Part shown: positions 4,510 to 12,357 of the stretch, piece after piece
Layout: each line of letters begins with the position of its first letter
Numbering within the stretch: position 1 is the stretch's first letter
Assembly (NCBI RefSeq): GCF_001598255.1
Contig: NZ_BCYP01000024.1
Span: 1-64,000, forward strand
Length of the DNA stretch: 64,000 nucleotides
Source of the DNA: Mitsuaria chitosanitabida ATCC BAA-476 = NBRC 102408
Lineage (GTDB): Bacteria > Pseudomonadota > Gammaproteobacteria > Burkholderiales > Burkholderiaceae_C
Direction of reading: 5' to 3'
Position numbers and translations under genes: made by a program
Notes under the pieces: model-generated
What the model was told of the DNA's origin: nothing
Database searches by the model: none
Seen by the model: only the letters and a program-made list of their open reading frames with translations

Positions 4510-4629
4510 CCCGCGCCTTGTCCCCGGTTTCCCGCTATAACTCCGCCTCGAAAGATTGCCGGCTGGTGTCGAGCCATGTCGCCGGCGCTACAAGACCAGG
4601 GGTCGGATGACCCGGAAGAGGGAGTTGCG

Positions 4630-6264
4630 ATGAATCGATCCGCCATCCAGCGGAAGGCGCGTCTGGCGGTGGCCGGCGCGGTCGGGGCGATGTTGCTGCA
4701 GGCCTGCGGCGGTGGCGGCAGCCAGGGCGGGACGCCCGTCCTCGGCGGCACCGCCCCCAGCACCGGCGGCGGGACGATCATCATCGGCGGCGGCAACGCG
4801 GCCCTGCAGCCCAGTTCCACCTTCGCGCAGCAGTGCGCCGCGGGCAACACCGAGGCCGCGCCCAACCTGCGCACCGCCAGCCTCACGACGGAGAAGAGCT
4901 GGGTCCGCTCCTACATGGACGAGGCTTATCTGTGGCGCGAGGAGGTGCCCACGGTCGACGCGACCGCCGCCGCCTACAGCGGCAGCGACGTGGGCGTGGC
5001 GCTCGAGAACTACTTCAAGGCGCTCAAGTCCACGGCCCTGACGTCCAGCGGCAAGCCGCGCGACCAGTTCAGCTTCGTGATGAGCACCCGCGAATGGAAT
5101 GCGTTGTCGTCCGGCGGCGTGGCGCTGGGCTACGGCATCGAATGGACCATGGCCTCGCCGACGCCGCCGCGCAACATCCGCGTGGCCTATGTCGAGCCGG
5201 GCAGCGTCGCCGCCAATGCCGGCGTGCAGCGCGGCGACACGCTGGTGACGGCCGACGGGACGGCCGCCGACGCGGGTGACTCGGCCGGCGTCGCGGCGCT
5301 GAACGCGGCGCTGTATCCCGGCGCCCTGGGCCAGAACCACAACTTCGTGTTCACGCCCAACGGCGGCGGGTCGCGCTCGGTCTCGCTGGCCAGCGCCAAC
5401 GTCACCAAGACGCCGGTGCCGACCAGCCAGGTGCTGACCGGCGCCGACGGCGCGCGCGTGGGCTACATGGTCTTCAACGACCACATCGCCCCGGCCGAGG
5501 CGCAGCTGATCAGCGCGGTGCGCAACTTCAGCACCGCCGGCGTCACCGACCTGGTCGTGGACCTGCGCTACAACGGCGGCGGCTACCTGTTCATCGCCAG
5601 CGAGCTGGCCTACATGATCGCGGGCAGCGCGCCCACCTCGGGCAAGACCTTCGAGCAGCTGCGCTACAACAGCCTGCGCAGCGCCGAGACCAACAGCAGC
5701 GACGCGCGCACGCCGTTCTACAACCAGTCCTGCGTGCTGGTGGGGAACAACTGCACCTCGCAGCAGCCGCTGCCGGCGCTGAACCTCAAGCGGGTGTTCA
5801 TCCTCGCGCAGAGCGGCACCTGCTCCGCGAGCGAGGCGCTGATCAACGGCCTGCGCGGCGTGGACATCGACGTGGTGCTGATCGGCGGCACGACCTGTGG
5901 CAAGCCCTACGGCTTCACGGCCAAGGACAACTGCGGCTACAGCTACTTCCCGATCGAGTTCGTCGGCGCCAACAACAAGGGCTTCGGCGACTATGCCGAC
6001 GGCTTCGTCCCGGCCGGCACCGGCGCGACCGGCGTCAAGGGCTGCCGCGTGACGGACGACCTGGACCACGCGCTGGGCGACACGGGCGAGCGCATGCTCG
6101 CCGCGGCCATGCAGTACCGCCTCACCGGCAGCTGCCCGGTGACCGCGTCCGAGGCGCCCCGCGCCACCGCGCTGGGCGTGCGCGAGGCGGGCGCCGACGC
6201 GGTCGCGCTCTCGCTCCAGAAGCTCGCCGCCCGCAGCAACCGGATCGCCGGCGGCCGCCACTGA
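4630..6264 (+). CDS. S41 family (C-terminal processing-like) peptidase, lipoprotein
   Basis: The 544-residue product begins with a lipoprotein signal ending in 'MLLQAC' and followed by a Gly-rich tether, so it is anchored to a membrane facing the periplasm. A PDZ domain follows at about residues 160-240 ('VEPGSVAANAGVQRGDTLV'), then the S41 protease domain with 'VTDLVVDLRYNGGG' and the nucleophile region 'SGTCSASEAL' (Ser399/Ser401), which replaces the commoner SASASE. Several cysteine pairs in the C-terminal half suggest disulfides. The ATG at 4630 was chosen for the GGAG ribosome-binding site 6-9 bases upstream and the intact lipobox; an upstream in-frame start at 4576 would bury the signal. 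A strong terminator follows, so the gene is probably transcribed alone. Confidence 0.9.
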   Translation: MNRSAIQRKARLAVAGAVGAMLLQACGGGGSQGGTPVLGGTAPSTGGGTIIIGGGNAALQPSSTFAQQCAAGNTEAAPNLRTASLTTEKSWVRSYMDEAYLWREEVPTVDATAAAYSGSDVGVALENYFKALKSTALTSSGKPRDQFSFVMSTREWNALSSGGVALGYGIEWTMASPTPPRNIRVAYVEPGSVAANAGVQRGDTLVTADGTAADAGDSAGVAALNAALYPGALGQNHNFVFTPNGGGSRSVSLASANVTKTPVPTSQVLTGADGARVGYMVFNDHIAPAEAQLISAVRNFSTAGVTDLVVDLRYNGGGYLFIASELAYMIAGSAPTSGKTFEQLRYNSLRSAETNSSDARTPFYNQSCVLVGNNCTSQQPLPALNLKRVFILAQSGTCSASEALINGLRGVDIDVVLIGGTTCGKPYGFTAKDNCGYSYFPIEFVGANNKGFGDYADGFVPAGTGATGVKGCRVTDDLDHALGDTGERMLAAAMQYRLTGSCPVTASEAPRATALGVREAGADAVALSLQKLAARSNRIAGGRH

Positions 6265-6286
6265 CCGGCGCCTCCAGCAACGACAA

Positions 6287-6309
6287 GGCCACCCGAGGGT
6301 GGCCTTTTT
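6287..6309 (+). terminator. Rho-independent terminator after the S41 peptidase
   Basis: A perfect 8-bp stem (GGCCACCC / GGGTGGCC) with a two-base loop is followed by TTTTT, 22 bases after the peptidase stop codon. The U tract lies on the plus-strand side only, so it serves the peptidase rather than the convergent pssA gene. Confidence 0.9.
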
Positions 6310-6327
6310 CATGGGGGCTTGCGAGCC

Positions 6328-6945
6328 TTACAGCTTCGGGATTCGGATGCGGCTGATCATGAGCGATCCGGAGATCGCGAACATCAGCACCAGCGGATGC
6401 AGCGTGAAGCCCAGCAGCTTGAGCTCGCCCCCCCACAGCGCGGCGCCGGTCGCGCCTTGCCACGCCGCCACCCACAGGATGATCACCAGCAGCAGCGAGG
6501 TCGGGATGGGCGTGCCCTCGAAGTAGCTCACCTTGCCGGTGCCGGCGCTCAGTTCCTCGGCGGTGATGTTGTAGCGGGCCAGTCGCGACACGCCGGCCGC
6601 GACGAAGAAGCCCAGCACCACCCGGTCCCACAGGCCCTGCATGCCGCAGCCGTAGGCGATCACCGCCGGCGCGACGCCGAAGGAGATCACGTCCGCCAGC
6701 GAGTCCAGTTCCCGGCCCATGGCCGAGCTCTTCTGGCGCCAGCGCGCGATGCGGCCGTCCAGCACGTCGAAGACCAGCGCGGCGGGGATCAGCGCGCAGG
6801 CGTAGTACAGGTGCAGCACCAGCCCGGTCTGCAGGTAGGTCATCACGGAGAACAGCGCGCCCACCCCGCAGAAGGCGTTGCCCAGGGTGAACCAGTCCGC
6901 CAGATGGAACTCGCGGATCATGGAGAAAGGCTTGGGTCGGTTCAT
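6328..6945 (-). CDS. pssA: CDP-diacylglycerol--serine O-phosphatidyltransferase
   Basis: An integral membrane enzyme of 205 residues that makes phosphatidylserine from CDP-diacylglycerol and serine, the committed step to phosphatidylethanolamine. The CDP-alcohol phosphotransferase signature DGx2ARx8Gx3Dx3D is complete in the region 'DVLDGRIARW' to 'ELDSLAD', and about six to eight membrane helices follow. The start at 6945 ('MNRPKPFSMIREFHL') was chosen because family members begin with a short basic stretch before 'FxLPNxFT', here 'DWFTLGNAF'. An in-frame ATG at 6978 is possible and no start has a good ribosome-binding site. It lies 102 bases after the nucleotidyltransferase gene on the same strand and may be co-transcribed with that cassette. 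Confidence 0.9.
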   Translation of the reverse strand: MNRPKPFSMIREFHLADWFTLGNAFCGVGALFSVMTYLQTGLVLHLYYACALIPAALVFDVLDGRIARWRQKSSAMGRELDSLADVISFGVAPAVIAYGCGMQGLWDRVVLGFFVAAGVSRLARYNITAEELSAGTGKVSYFEGTPIPTSLLLVIILWVAAWQGATGAALWGGELKLLGFTLHPLVLMFAISGSLMISRIRIPKL

Positions 6946-7047
6946 GGGGAGGGAGCATAAGCGATGGCCCCGCGCCATCGCGGCAAGGAGCGCACCCGCC
7001 GTACACCCGCGGCATGGCGCATGGCCCCCAGCAGGCCGGCGTCCCGT

Positions 7048-8223
7048 TCAGCCCTGCGCGGGTGGCTTGGCGTCCGGGGCGCCGGTGCGGGTGTCCGGCG
7101 ACGGCGGGGGCGCGGTCAGGCGGCCCCAGGCCTTGCGGCCCAGGTGCAGCGCCAGCAGCCCGAAGGGCATGCGCAGCCAGTGCGAGCGCACGTACAGGCC
7201 GAGCTCCGCCAGCGCGTGGCCCGGCAGGCGGCAGCTCTCGTGCGCGGGACGCAGCGCGCGGCGGTAGCAGGCGTCGAGCAGCCGGCGCGCCAGCGGCCCC
7301 GGCGGCGGGCCCAGCTCGTCCGGCAGTGTGTCGGGGTAGGGCGTGTCCAGCATCGCGCGGGTGTAGCGCAGCGCCAGCCACAGCGGCCGTGTCAGACCGA
7401 TCGCGCGGGCGCGGGCGGTCAGCCGGGGCCAGAAGCCGTCGAGCGTGCCGAACTCGCGCAGCAGCGCATCCAGGTCGAACAGGTCACGCAGGCCGTTGGG
7501 CAACTCGCCCTCGTGGAAGAGGTGCGCGGCGCTGTGCAGCAGCATGTCCTCGGGCGGCAGCACGAACACGCCCGGCCGGCCCGGCAGCGGGCGCGGGGCG
7601 TCGAACAGGCGCTGGCTGTCCAGCGGCGTGCGCGCGGTCGGCGGCAGCAGCGTGTGGTGGACGTCCAGCGAGGTGCCGCGGCGGATGTGGTGCAACGGCG
7701 GCAGCTCGTGCATCCACTCGCGGTAGTAGCGCTGGTCGTAGGCGTCCAGTTCGTCGTCGAAAGCCCAGCCGTGCACCAGCAGCGCGGTCTCGCAGCGCGG
7801 CAGCTGCGCGGGCGGGATCAGCAGGTCGATGTCGCTGAACATGCGGCCCGGCGCTGGCGCGTGGCCGCCCAGCGCGTAGGCTGCGCCCTTGAGCAGGATC
7901 ATCGGGCCGGGCAGCTCCGACAGCGTGGCCGCCAGCAGCTCGACCTCGCGGCCCAGCATCTGGCTCTGTCGCCGCGACAGCAGCAGCGCGGAGCGCAGGT
8001 GCGGCTGCACCGGCGCCGGCAGCTCGTCGAGCCAGCCGCCGGCCGCCATCTCGTGGGCCAGCCGACCGGCGAGGTTGGCGCGCCGCGCCTGGCGCAGCAG
8101 CAGGTCCCAGTCGGTCAGGCTCAGCCCGACGGCGATCGCCGGCCTCAGCAGCACGCGCACCAGCAGCGGCCGGCGCCGGTCCTCGCCGAAGGGATGGCCG
8201 GGGGCGTGGCGGGGCGCGCTCAT
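7048..8223 (-). CDS. Nucleotidyltransferase family protein of the HPr-rel-A cassette (NTP_transf_5-like)
   Basis: The 391-residue protein belongs to the uncharacterised nucleotidyltransferase family PF14907. The active-site region is visible as 'LLKGAAYALGGH' followed by 'MFSDIDLLIPPAQL', whose paired aspartates would bind the metal and nucleotide. A later His-rich stretch ('MLLHSAAHLFHEGEL') is also typical. Members of this family occur next to HprK-like kinases and PqqD-like proteins; in some lasso peptide clusters such a protein adds a group to a serine phosphorylated by the kinase. The start ATG overlaps the stop of the kinase gene (ATGA), so the two proteins are made in a coupled manner. 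The substrate here is unknown. The C-terminus is Pro-rich and probably disordered. Confidence 0.85.
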   Translation of the reverse strand: MSAPRHAPGHPFGEDRRRPLLVRVLLRPAIAVGLSLTDWDLLLRQARRANLAGRLAHEMAAGGWLDELPAPVQPHLRSALLLSRRQSQMLGREVELLAATLSELPGPMILLKGAAYALGGHAPAPGRMFSDIDLLIPPAQLPRCETALLVHGWAFDDELDAYDQRYYREWMHELPPLHHIRRGTSLDVHHTLLPPTARTPLDSQRLFDAPRPLPGRPGVFVLPPEDMLLHSAAHLFHEGELPNGLRDLFDLDALLREFGTLDGFWPRLTARARAIGLTRPLWLALRYTRAMLDTPYPDTLPDELGPPPGPLARRLLDACYRRALRPAHESCRLPGHALAELGLYVRSHWLRMPFGLLALHLGRKAWGRLTAPPPSPDTRTGAPDAKPPAQG

Positions 8224-9191
8224 GCCGGGGCTCCCGAGGTCGCGGGGCGGCCGGACAGGCCGGGGGCGGCGGCCTCGCCGGCCGGCGACGCGGCCAGGGC
8301 CTCGAACAGCGCGAGCGCCTCGTCCAGTCGGCTGTACTCGAAGCGGTAGCAGCCGCAGGCGTCCACCAGCCGGCCCAGCGCCTGGAAGCCGGCGCGGCCG
8401 TGCAGGTCGTAATTGAAGGACTGTTCCGCCAGGTCCATGAAGGCGCGGGCGCGCTCGATCGGCGCGAGCTGGGCCGGCGCGTCCGCCCGCCAGCTGGGCA
8501 GCACGACCCAGGCCGGCCGCGCGGGTCGCAGCCGCGCGGCGATCGCGTCGTCGGGCGCGCGTACCAGCGCCACCGTGCCCTTGGTCGTGTTGGGCATGGA
8601 CGCGCTGAAGCGCGCCTCGGGCAGGAAGCCCTGGATCAGCGGGATCGAGGCGTTCTTGAGATTGATCGGCCGCGCCATCCCGTGGATCAGGCCGGTCGTC
8701 ATGTCCAGCAGACCGAGCTCGTCGGACAGCAGGCGCCAGCCGCGGTGCGCCAGCGCGGCGCACAGGGTGCTCTTGCCCGAGCCCGGCGGCGCCGGCATCA
8801 CCAGCGCGCGCCCGTCGCGCTCCAGCACCGCGGCGTGGATCAGCAGGAACTGGTGGGCATGCGCGGCGATGCACCAGTTGATGCCCCATTCGAGCATCGC
8901 CAGCGCCTGGGCCGCGGGCAGCGGCGTGAACGAGCGCTGGCCGTCGAACCAGAACTCCGCGCGGCCGCGCAGGCGGCTCAACCAGTGGGGGCTGCGCAGC
9001 ACGGCGACGTGGAAGTCGACGAACTCGTCCTCGGCGGCGAGCTCGAAGTCCTCGTACATCGCGGCGATGTCGTCGGCCAGGTGCGGGATGTCGGAGCGCA
9101 CGCGCACGACGAAGGGCGCCAGCTTCAGCGTGACGCCGTCGCCACGAAGCCGCTCGCGCAAGCCGCCGGAACTGAGCGCCTGGAGCTTCAA
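8220..9191 (-). CDS. HprK-related kinase A
   Basis: The 323-residue product resembles the C-terminal kinase domain of HPr kinase/phosphorylase. The P-loop is 'APPGSGKST' near residue 135, followed by 'LLSDELGLLD', the position of the second acidic motif. An upstream region ('HLADDIAAMYEDFEL') is shared by the HprK-rel-A family. No HPr or phosphotransferase gene is nearby, so it probably phosphorylates a different protein or peptide. The TTG start at 9191 overlaps the stop of the PqqD-like gene and gives 'MKLQALSSGG'; a longer frame upstream runs through that gene and has no support. Position between the PqqD-like and nucleotidyltransferase genes matches the HPr-rel-A arrangement. Confidence 0.87.
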   Translation of the reverse strand: MKLQALSSGGLRERLRGDGVTLKLAPFVVRVRSDIPHLADDIAAMYEDFELAAEDEFVDFHVAVLRSPHWLSRLRGRAEFWFDGQRSFTPLPAAQALAMLEWGINWCIAAHAHQFLLIHAAVLERDGRALVMPAPPGSGKSTLCAALAHRGWRLLSDELGLLDMTTGLIHGMARPINLKNASIPLIQGFLPEARFSASMPNTTKGTVALVRAPDDAIAARLRPARPAWVVLPSWRADAPAQLAPIERARAFMDLAEQSFNYDLHGRAGFQALGRLVDACGCYRFEYSRLDEALALFEALAASPAGEAAAPGLSGRPATSGAPA

Positions 9192-9493
9192 GCCACGGGC
9201 TCCCGGGTCAGCAGGTGGATGTCGGCCAGGCGCTGCAGGTGCAGGTCCAGCAGCTCGGCCAGCGCGTCGGGCGCGGGGGGCTCGTCCCACTCGACCTCGG
9301 TGGCCAGGCGCGCCAGCAGCTGCGCGCGGGTCAGCGGCTCGGCGGCCAGCCATTCGGCCAGCTGCGCGCCGAGCGCGGCGATCAGGTGGGTGTCCCCGGC
9401 GACGGGGTCGAAAAAGACAGCGTGCTGCTCACCCTCCCAGGCGAGCAGCACGTCGGACAGCGGGTGCGGACAGCGCCACGCCGGACTGGTCAT
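9188..9493 (-). CDS. PqqD-like peptide chaperone of the HPr-rel-A cassette
   Basis: This 101-residue protein has the size and winged-helix pattern of PqqD, the recognition element that binds leader peptides of ribosomally made, modified peptides. Visible features are 'DPVAGDTHLIAALGAQLAEWL' split over the first helices and a Leu-rich C-terminal helix pair ('LAELLDLHLQRLADIHLL'). In this family it is expected to present a substrate to the neighbouring kinase. Its ATG overlaps the stop of the Tat-signal protein by one base (TGATG), and its own stop overlaps the kinase start, so translation is coupled on both sides. That coupling makes the upstream protein the best candidate for its client. Confidence 0.83.
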   Translation of the reverse strand: MTSPAWRCPHPLSDVLLAWEGEQHAVFFDPVAGDTHLIAALGAQLAEWLAAEPLTRAQLLARLATEVEWDEPPAPDALAELLDLHLQRLADIHLLTREPVA

Positions 9494-10164
9494 CAGGAAA
9501 TGAGCCAGTTGTCTTTGAGGTAGTTGTAGAAGTCGGTCGAGGTCCAGGCGGCGCCGCTCGAGTTGTTCGGCTTGAACACGTTCGGGCCTTGCGAGGCCAT
9601 CTTGATCAGCATGTCCTCGCCGGTGGACGAAACCACGCACTGCGCGACGTTGTGGCCGGCGAACAGCGTGTTCAGGCGGGCCACCAGCATCATCGTGGCG
9701 TAGCTCGACGAGCTCTGGGCGAACAGGTCGGCGACCTTGGCGGTCGGGGACACGTTCTTCAGGCCGCCCGGGTACACCTTGGCGACGGTCAGGTTGTTCT
9801 TGCAGTAGCTGTAGGACTTGCCGCTGAACCAGTAGGCCGCGACGAAGGACCAGGGCGCCGAGCTCGACACCTGGCTGCGCACCGTGTTGCCGACCCAGTT
9901 CGAGATGGTCCAGCACTCGGTGTTGCTCAGCACGGCGTTGTCGGCGCGCGCCTGCACGCTGGCGCCGCCGTTGCGCAGCACCGCGGAACCCCAGGCCGAG
10001 GTCGTGTTGCAGTGCCAGGCCATGACCGGGCGGCTGGCCAGCGTCAGGCCGACGGGCACCACGCCCGCCTGGATGAAGCGGCGACGGCGCTGCGAGACAA
10101 CGGCTCCGGCGACGGGCGTCGGGGTGGCCGAGGGCTGCTGGGAGGTGTCGCTGCTGTGATCCAT
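9493..10164 (-). CDS. Twin-arginine-signal hypothetical protein, first gene of the HPr-rel-A cassette
   Basis: I do not recognise a characterised family. The 223-residue product has a 28-residue polar N-terminus, then 'SQRRRRFIQAGVVPVGL' and a hydrophobic stretch ending in 'ASRPVMAWHC', which reads as a Tat signal with likely cleavage after the second Ala. The mature part is Ser/Asn/Trp/Tyr-rich, with four well-spaced cysteines (in 'AWHC', 'NTEC', 'SYC' and 'AQC') that could form two disulfides. The extreme C-terminus is 'KDNWLIS', ending in serine. As first gene of a coupled run with a PqqD-like protein, a kinase and a nucleotidyltransferase, it is the natural candidate substrate. No metal-binding or catalytic motif is apparent. 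Confidence 0.72.
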   Translation of the reverse strand: MDHSSDTSQQPSATPTPVAGAVVSQRRRRFIQAGVVPVGLTLASRPVMAWHCNTTSAWGSAVLRNGGASVQARADNAVLSNTECWTISNWVGNTVRSQVSSSAPWSFVAAYWFSGKSYSYCKNNLTVAKVYPGGLKNVSPTAKVADLFAQSSSSYATMMLVARLNTLFAGHNVAQCVVSSTGEDMLIKMASQGPNVFKPNNSSGAAWTSTDFYNYLKDNWLIS

Positions 10165-10419
10165 AAACTCAGCTTTCGTGGTGCATGGGCCCGGAAATAG
10201 GGCGGACGCTCATGCCGATCGGAACTTGTCCGACCTGCGAGCGCAGTGTTCCATACAAGCCTGCCCCCGCAAAGCCCGCCCAACCCCTTGAACGGGTGGC
10301 GTGCGGCGTCCATCAAACGGTGGATAAGTCAGCGCCGGCTTACGTTGAAACCGTTGCCGCGCAATGAGATCAAGGCATCGTGAAACCGGCATGTCGCCGG
10401 ATGCCGGTTCATCGATGGC

Positions 10420-12357
<1,938 letters not shown>

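Follow-up and report, generated by a model that had tools for sequence, protein, structure and literature searches.

A twin-arginine leader protein as the candidate substrate of an HPr-rel-A-type kinase cassette in Mitsuaria chitosanitabida

Genes at the locus

The window analysed here, a stretch of 64,000 nucleotides from Mitsuaria chitosanitabida ATCC BAA-476 = NBRC 102408 (contig NZ_BCYP01000024.1, positions 1 to 64,000), carries four minus-strand open reading frames (ORFs) in the order T-P-K-N, which encode a protein with a twin-arginine (Tat) leader, a PqqD-like protein, an HprK-related kinase and a nucleotidyltransferase (Table 1). The original prediction on this sequence regarded the exported Tat protein as the target of the cassette. 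Comparison with homologous loci strongly supports T as the target, because its gene is associated with that of the kinase, its leader and a serine box are conserved, and the position of the box matches the kinase phylogeny.

Table 1. Coordinates of the cassette genes and of the leader and serine box of T in the window.
Feature	Position	Strand	Description
T	9493-10164	-	223 residues; predicted substrate, Tat-leader protein, no known family
P	9188-9493	-	101 residues; HPr-rel-A PqqD-like protein that presumably binds the leader; TIGR04353
K	8220-9191	-	323 residues, TTG start; HprK-related kinase A; TIGR04352
N	7048-8223	-	391 residues; PF14907 nucleotidyltransferase
Leader of T	10018..10089	-	RRRRF (residues 26-30) through A49, last residue of TLASRPVMA
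Serine box of T	9985..10011	-	C52-N-T-T-S56-A-W-G-S60; candidate acceptor site

The four genes overlap at all three junctions, as had been claimed, by 1 base between T and P (TGATG at 9493) and by 4 bases both between P and K (TTGA) and between K and N (ATGA), and a purpose-written coding-potential caller recovered all four ORFs with the same starts. The arrangement recurs in a set of 112 first-round loci, namely the window, 80 loci from a kinase search and 31 from an order-wide search: among the genes called there, an overlap was seen for 71 of 96 K-N pairs, of which 53 share exactly 4 bases, and for 38 of 46 P-K pairs. The coupling of the cassette genes exceeds chance.

The family identities given for P, K and N hold as well, with all three proteins above curated cut-offs. 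K scores 397.4 bits against TIGR04352 (HprK_rel_A; cut-off 200), P scores 43.7 bits against TIGR04353 (PqqD_rel_X; cut-off 35), and N, whose gene adjoins that of the kinase, scores 194 bits against PF14907 (cut-off 31.2). K and P therefore belong to the system named HPr-rel-A, the models of which cover the kinase and the chaperone alone, while the T proteins stand outside NCBIfam and Pfam: a known family for T was sought and rejected, since T of the window, ten T proteins from the first round and four from the later loci all fail to match any of these profiles at curated cut-offs. No publication on the substrate or function of HPr-rel-A was found in the searchable literature, which covers few subscription papers. 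TIGR04352 matches once in the whole window genome, and T likewise has a single significant match there. Nothing supports an origin in a phage or plasmid: PHROGs gave no match to any of the four proteins, plasmids none to T and phages none to K.

An ATP-binding cassette (ABC) transporter of the MsbA/ChvA kind (10420-12357) lies on the strand of T, 255 bases upstream of it, and scores below every curated NCBIfam cut-off shown. It was considered as a fifth member and rejected, being not conserved across loci: alignments over more than 400 residues occur in 3 of the 112 loci, namely the window, its near relative L074, and L142 (34%).

Association of T with the kinase

A T-leader profile built from 19 seeds was scanned on the 13,057 stop-to-stop ORFs of the first-round loci at independent E-values up to 0.05. 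It matches 110 of the 112 loci (91 of 93 without the seed loci) with 112 hits, and no further hit appeared among the ORFs scanned. Every hit shares the strand of the kinase; 104 immediately precede the kinase gene, 7 are found about 3 kb downstream and 1 further upstream. The two loci missed by the profile, L054 and L142, carry upstream of the kinase a protein with an RR leader and an SGM.S motif, recognised by eye. With these two counted, each of the 112 first-round loci pairs the kinase with a Tat-leader T. Two T paralogues are present in each of L137 and L143.

The association also holds at the genome level. A kinase above the TIGR04352 cut-off occurs in 32 of 200 genomes of an order sample, 27 of 274 of a class sample and 61 of 398 of a phylum sample. 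T was found in 29 of the 32 order-sample genomes with K versus 3 of the 168 without it (Fisher p 3e-28), and in the class sample, with three genomes shared with the order sample removed and T hits counted at E < 1e-6, in 20 of 25 with K versus 1 of 246 without (p 1e-24), both tests ignoring shared ancestry. In four of the five class-sample genomes with K and no strong T, a weaker Tat-leader hit lies upstream, and in the fifth the locus meets a contig edge. The sole class-sample genome with T and no K above the cut-off (L154) has another HprK-like kinase (72 bits) beside the hit.

A further 73 loci, all short (up to about 6.5 kb), were collected later: 19 from class genomes in which the T hit was already known (L189-L207) and 54 unseen ones from the phylum sample. 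A T-like ORF is present in 64 of the 73, i.e. in 45 of the 54 unseen loci, where seven assignments (L224-L226, L228-L231) rely on a looser leader pattern. A more sensitive run added a hit directly upstream of the kinase in L222 and one on the opposite strand in L176.

Some more distant loci are worth describing in their own right. In L154 the hit is a Tat-leader peptide of 87 residues (6446-6709) beside an HprK-like kinase and a PqqD-like protein whose nearest relatives are lasso chaperones, and in L155 two Tat-leader peptides of 57 and 59 residues (4576-4749 and 6212-6391; weaker hits) stand beside a similar kinase. These kinases reach about 70 bits against TIGR04352, and the two loci may belong to a sister system whose products are true peptides.

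Regarding the surroundings, a kinase was called in 104 loci, and 47 of these contain exopolysaccharide families of the XrtA/PEP-CTERM type, namely PrsT, a chain length determinant, an export protein, a tyrosine autokinase, a glycosyltransferase and an acyltransferase. An XrtA export protein above cut-off is encoded by 31 of the 32 order-sample genomes with K versus 27 of the 168 without it (p 3e-19, shared ancestry again ignored). A MarP/HtrA-like serine protease recurs in 33 of the 104 loci, 31 of these with XrtA genes, at a median of 2.4 kb upstream of the kinase (representative, L135).

Leader, serine box and enzymes

The 109 distinct first-round leaders give the consensus SRRR[LF]..AG.A..PV[LI]LTLASRPVLA, followed by C..[TS]PSG..SGN.S, and the two twin-arginine columns are 98% and 100% conserved (weighted, 108 leaders). 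Judged from these residues, the leader is a signal of the twin-arginine kind and includes a conserved LTLxS segment. T thus combines a twin-arginine motif and a hydrophobic stretch with a Tat pathway in its genome, where TatC scores 231 bits, and export of T is predicted.

In an alignment of 73 T proteins (the window and 72 of the 80 kinase-search loci, some rows originating from order-sample genomes; mean identity 13%), R28, S56 and S60 are invariant and R27, C52, S69 and L164 nearly so. This alignment omits L094, L097, L131, L133 (an ORF that begins at a contig end with its RR out of view), L142, three duplicates, the second copies of L137 and L143, and every T from beyond the window and those 80 loci, including all nine first-round C-box types described below. 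Over the first-round T proteins, serine or threonine occupies the S56 column in 99 of 107 and the S60 column in 101 of 108. The AlphaFold model of T in the window is helical and mostly confident from residue 81 on, with the leader and the box poorly predicted. Foldseek and a second look with it gave no fold relative of T in the PDB, and sequence profiles of T and N gave merely weak, short or unconvincing PDB matches. Two first-round T-like leaders precede low-complexity bodies, one with GN repeats and rich in serine (L060, 8179-8625), the other short with an arginine-rich end (L094, 6496-6753).

The serine box takes one of two places, either just past the leader (N box, with S56 and S60 in the window) or at the C-terminus (C box). 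Proteins with a C box have no box after the leader and end in motifs such as SCWTSF or FTCFASL. By rule, an N box was found in 94 of 107 first-round T proteins (L068 has a C box too and is labelled C), and the 64 later T proteins comprise 37 with a C box, 21 with an N box, 1 with both and 5 with neither. The place of the box follows the kinase. In a quick IQ-TREE tree of 115 kinases, 14 C-type loci fall on one side of a single branch (Shimodaira-Hasegawa-like approximate likelihood ratio 95). On a FastTree tree of 188 kinases (169 rows labelled, 19 unlabelled), box position requires 2 changes versus a mean of 44 for shuffled labels, with none of 500 shuffles as low, where first-round loci are labelled N by default unless they are of C type or listed as unclear, and where the C-box rule was widened after the later loci had been read, which makes the label true by definition under the wider rule. 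The earlier, narrower rule matches 18 of the 37 C-type and none of the 21 N-type later T proteins. On these sequence patterns, the serine boxes may be portable acceptor sites.

As for the enzymes, K140 (Walker A/P-loop), H119, D157 and E158 of K are invariant in an alignment of 30 sequences and align with the Lys, His and Asp-Asp of HPr kinase, with E158 in place of the second Asp. In N, residues K112, G113, D131, D133 and D187 are identical in 96 of 96 sequences. The structure model of N is confident (predicted local distance difference test, 92), and its best Foldseek matches are nucleotidyltransferases (such as MenT1, ANT(2'')-Ia and LnuA; probability 0.89-1.0, E 0.01-0.3), none with E < 0.001.

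P and N were further followed in 118 earlier kinase loci, where three kinases, all inside the 112 first-round loci, are identical to others. The P profile matches in 118 of 118 (117 adjacent to the kinase) and N is found in 116 (111 adjacent and on the same strand), counts that are partly circular as both profiles were built from genes chosen by position in the same loci. One locus without N (L105) stops 170 bases past the kinase match. The four-part cassette is typical rather than universal, because P or N was not found in part of the loci. Seven distant kinases (L216, L218-L223) have nothing significant beside them by the P profile and a T-like ORF in most cases; their PqqD-like partner appears divergent or missing.

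Related systems, mechanism and alternatives

Two published kinds of system resemble the cassette. Linear polyphosphorylated peptides (LPP) of Bacillota come from clusters that combine an HprK-like kinase, a discrete recognition element (RRE) for ribosomally synthesized and post-translationally modified peptides (RiPPs) and a nucleoside triphosphate (NTP) transferase; LppK phosphorylates Ser3 of the core peptide, the precursors of 35-200 residues have a conserved N-terminus and a variable C-terminus, one to three of them being possible per cluster, and clusters were found inside capsule or polysaccharide loci (PMC13381572). The window cassette likewise brings together a kinase, an RRE and an NTP transferase, orthology to LppK, LppB and LppN not being implied, and its precursor shares the conserved N-terminus and variable C-terminus; in LPP the phosphorylated serine lies close to the leader cleavage site. 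The differences are a leader of twin-arginine type, mostly larger precursors, of up to 282 residues and predicted to be exported, and hosts that are mostly Pseudomonadota. The LPP precursor motif YxxPxVLxHQxIxFETxxS has no counterpart here, where the leader consensus is SRRR..AG..PVLLTLASRPVLA. The archaeal-type signal peptidase I of LPP (LppS, SpI) was not recognised among the six window genes scanned nor among the 32 commonest neighbour families (ten representatives scanned), and an MsbA-like exporter, which LPP clusters conserve, is limited to the 3 of 112 loci noted above. The whole words Proteobacteria, Pseudomonadota, twin-arginine and Tat do not occur in the main text of PMC13381572. 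By analogy, the cassette would work like LPP or lasso tailoring; we do not file it as LPP because no SpI peptidase was seen, no exporter is conserved and the leader is different.

The second resemblance is to the tailoring of the lasso peptides paeninodin and pseudomycoidin, which combines a serine kinase with a nucleotidyltransferase-like enzyme; PadeK is reported to act on a C-terminal serine (PMC9266682), an acceptor that recalls the C-box class. T itself is no lasso peptide, and the statement that the locus lacks lasso cyclase and protease was borne out, with neither a cyclase nor a B2 protease among the six genes scanned (6328-12357). SynChlorMet ScmC and ScmD show weak similarity to K and to the PqqD-like protein of L154, far below curated cut-offs.

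With these precedents, we consider it moderately probable that the four genes make up a cassette for protein modification, with leader-guided serine phosphorylation, capping or extension by N, Tat export and a role in XrtA-type exopolysaccharide. In such a scheme P, as a PqqD-like leader-binding domain, would recognise the N-terminal leader of T, which would double as the Tat export signal. K would phosphorylate serine in the compact box (S56 and/or S60 in the window), which is plausible from its published relatives PadeK, LppK and PsmN, and N would cap or extend the phosphate through nucleotidyl or glycosyl transfer. The modified T, folded in the cytoplasm, would leave through Tat and act in or with the XrtA-type exopolysaccharide system. 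From the comparisons above we infer that P binds the leader, that K phosphorylates T and what N adds, and likewise that T is exported and acts at the surface.

The step of N is where a competing explanation comes closest. K and P may act on T as above while N transfers a sugar; this would yield a phospho-glycoprotein carrying hexose on its phosphoserine, which might prime or anchor exopolysaccharide. In pseudomycoidin, the phosphoserine receives one or two hexoses in a PsmN-dependent manner, with an indirect route not excluded (PMC9266682), and the XrtA exopolysaccharide genes accompany the kinase; however, the N model finds nucleotidyltransferases as its best structural matches, with no glycosyltransferase among the best 50 of 129, and D131, D133 and D187 are invariant, so we rate this explanation as somewhat unlikely. 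The precedents of PadeK, LppK and PsmN would be compatible with either nucleotide or sugar addition by N. Concerning the acceptor, the boxes might instead be docking, folding or processing motifs, with K modifying another residue of T. Conservation extends to neighbouring residues such as C52 and S69, as a structural motif would show, and the box region is poorly predicted in the model of T. The box nevertheless follows the leader in one class and is C-terminal, on different bodies, in the other, its place tracks the kinase tree, and in L161 about a dozen residues past the leader end in CNASLI; we regard this alternative as improbable. That T is a mere neighbour, with HPr, a small molecule or something else as the actual target of K, P and N, appears very improbable against the adjacency and co-occurrence of T and K across many families, although K is distantly related to HPr kinase and seven of the 73 later loci have no detected T.

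Returning to leader-guided modification of T, several observations weigh against it. Nine of the 73 later loci have no T-like ORF, a number that falls to seven after the more sensitive search; homologous cassettes that consistently lack a T-like protein, which the original prediction had named as a refuting outcome, were looked for and not found, although these seven lack one. Among the 73 later loci, P was detected in 62 and N in 54; the lack of P in the other 11 suggests divergence or loss, and N of the remaining 19 may lie outside these short loci. In L129 other genes follow the kinase, with N truly absent there, and the full four-step scheme may not be valid for the whole family. In the published LPP test, deletion of lppN changed nothing (PMC13381572). 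Five later T proteins fit neither box by rule and three first-round ones (L060, L094, L097) fit neither clearly; the acceptor could be another conserved residue, e.g. S69 or a serine of the leader's own LTLxS. Moreover, the T profile includes the serine columns, and therefore T proteins without them may be under-collected. Finally, XrtA genes flank just 47 of the 104 loci rather than all, and the XrtA export gene of the window genome sits on another contig.

In spite of these points, the sequence comparisons indicate that the HPr-rel-A-type cassette is real and widely conserved, and that its substrate assignment is well supported. A broader view, which we offer tentatively and with the balance somewhat against it, is that the cassette is a protein-scale relative of RiPP systems, in which one leader would serve both PqqD-like recognition and Tat export, a portable serine box on exported proteins and peptides with about a dozen to more than 200 residues after the leader would be decorated by a cytoplasmic kinase and nucleotidyltransferase, and the products would serve XrtA exopolysaccharide matrices across Pseudomonadota. 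For the orphan HPr-rel-A modification system, the analysis proposes a substrate family, a leader and two candidate acceptor sites. If this is true, there would be RRE-guided serine modification of exported proteins, tied to exosortase-type exopolysaccharide loci.

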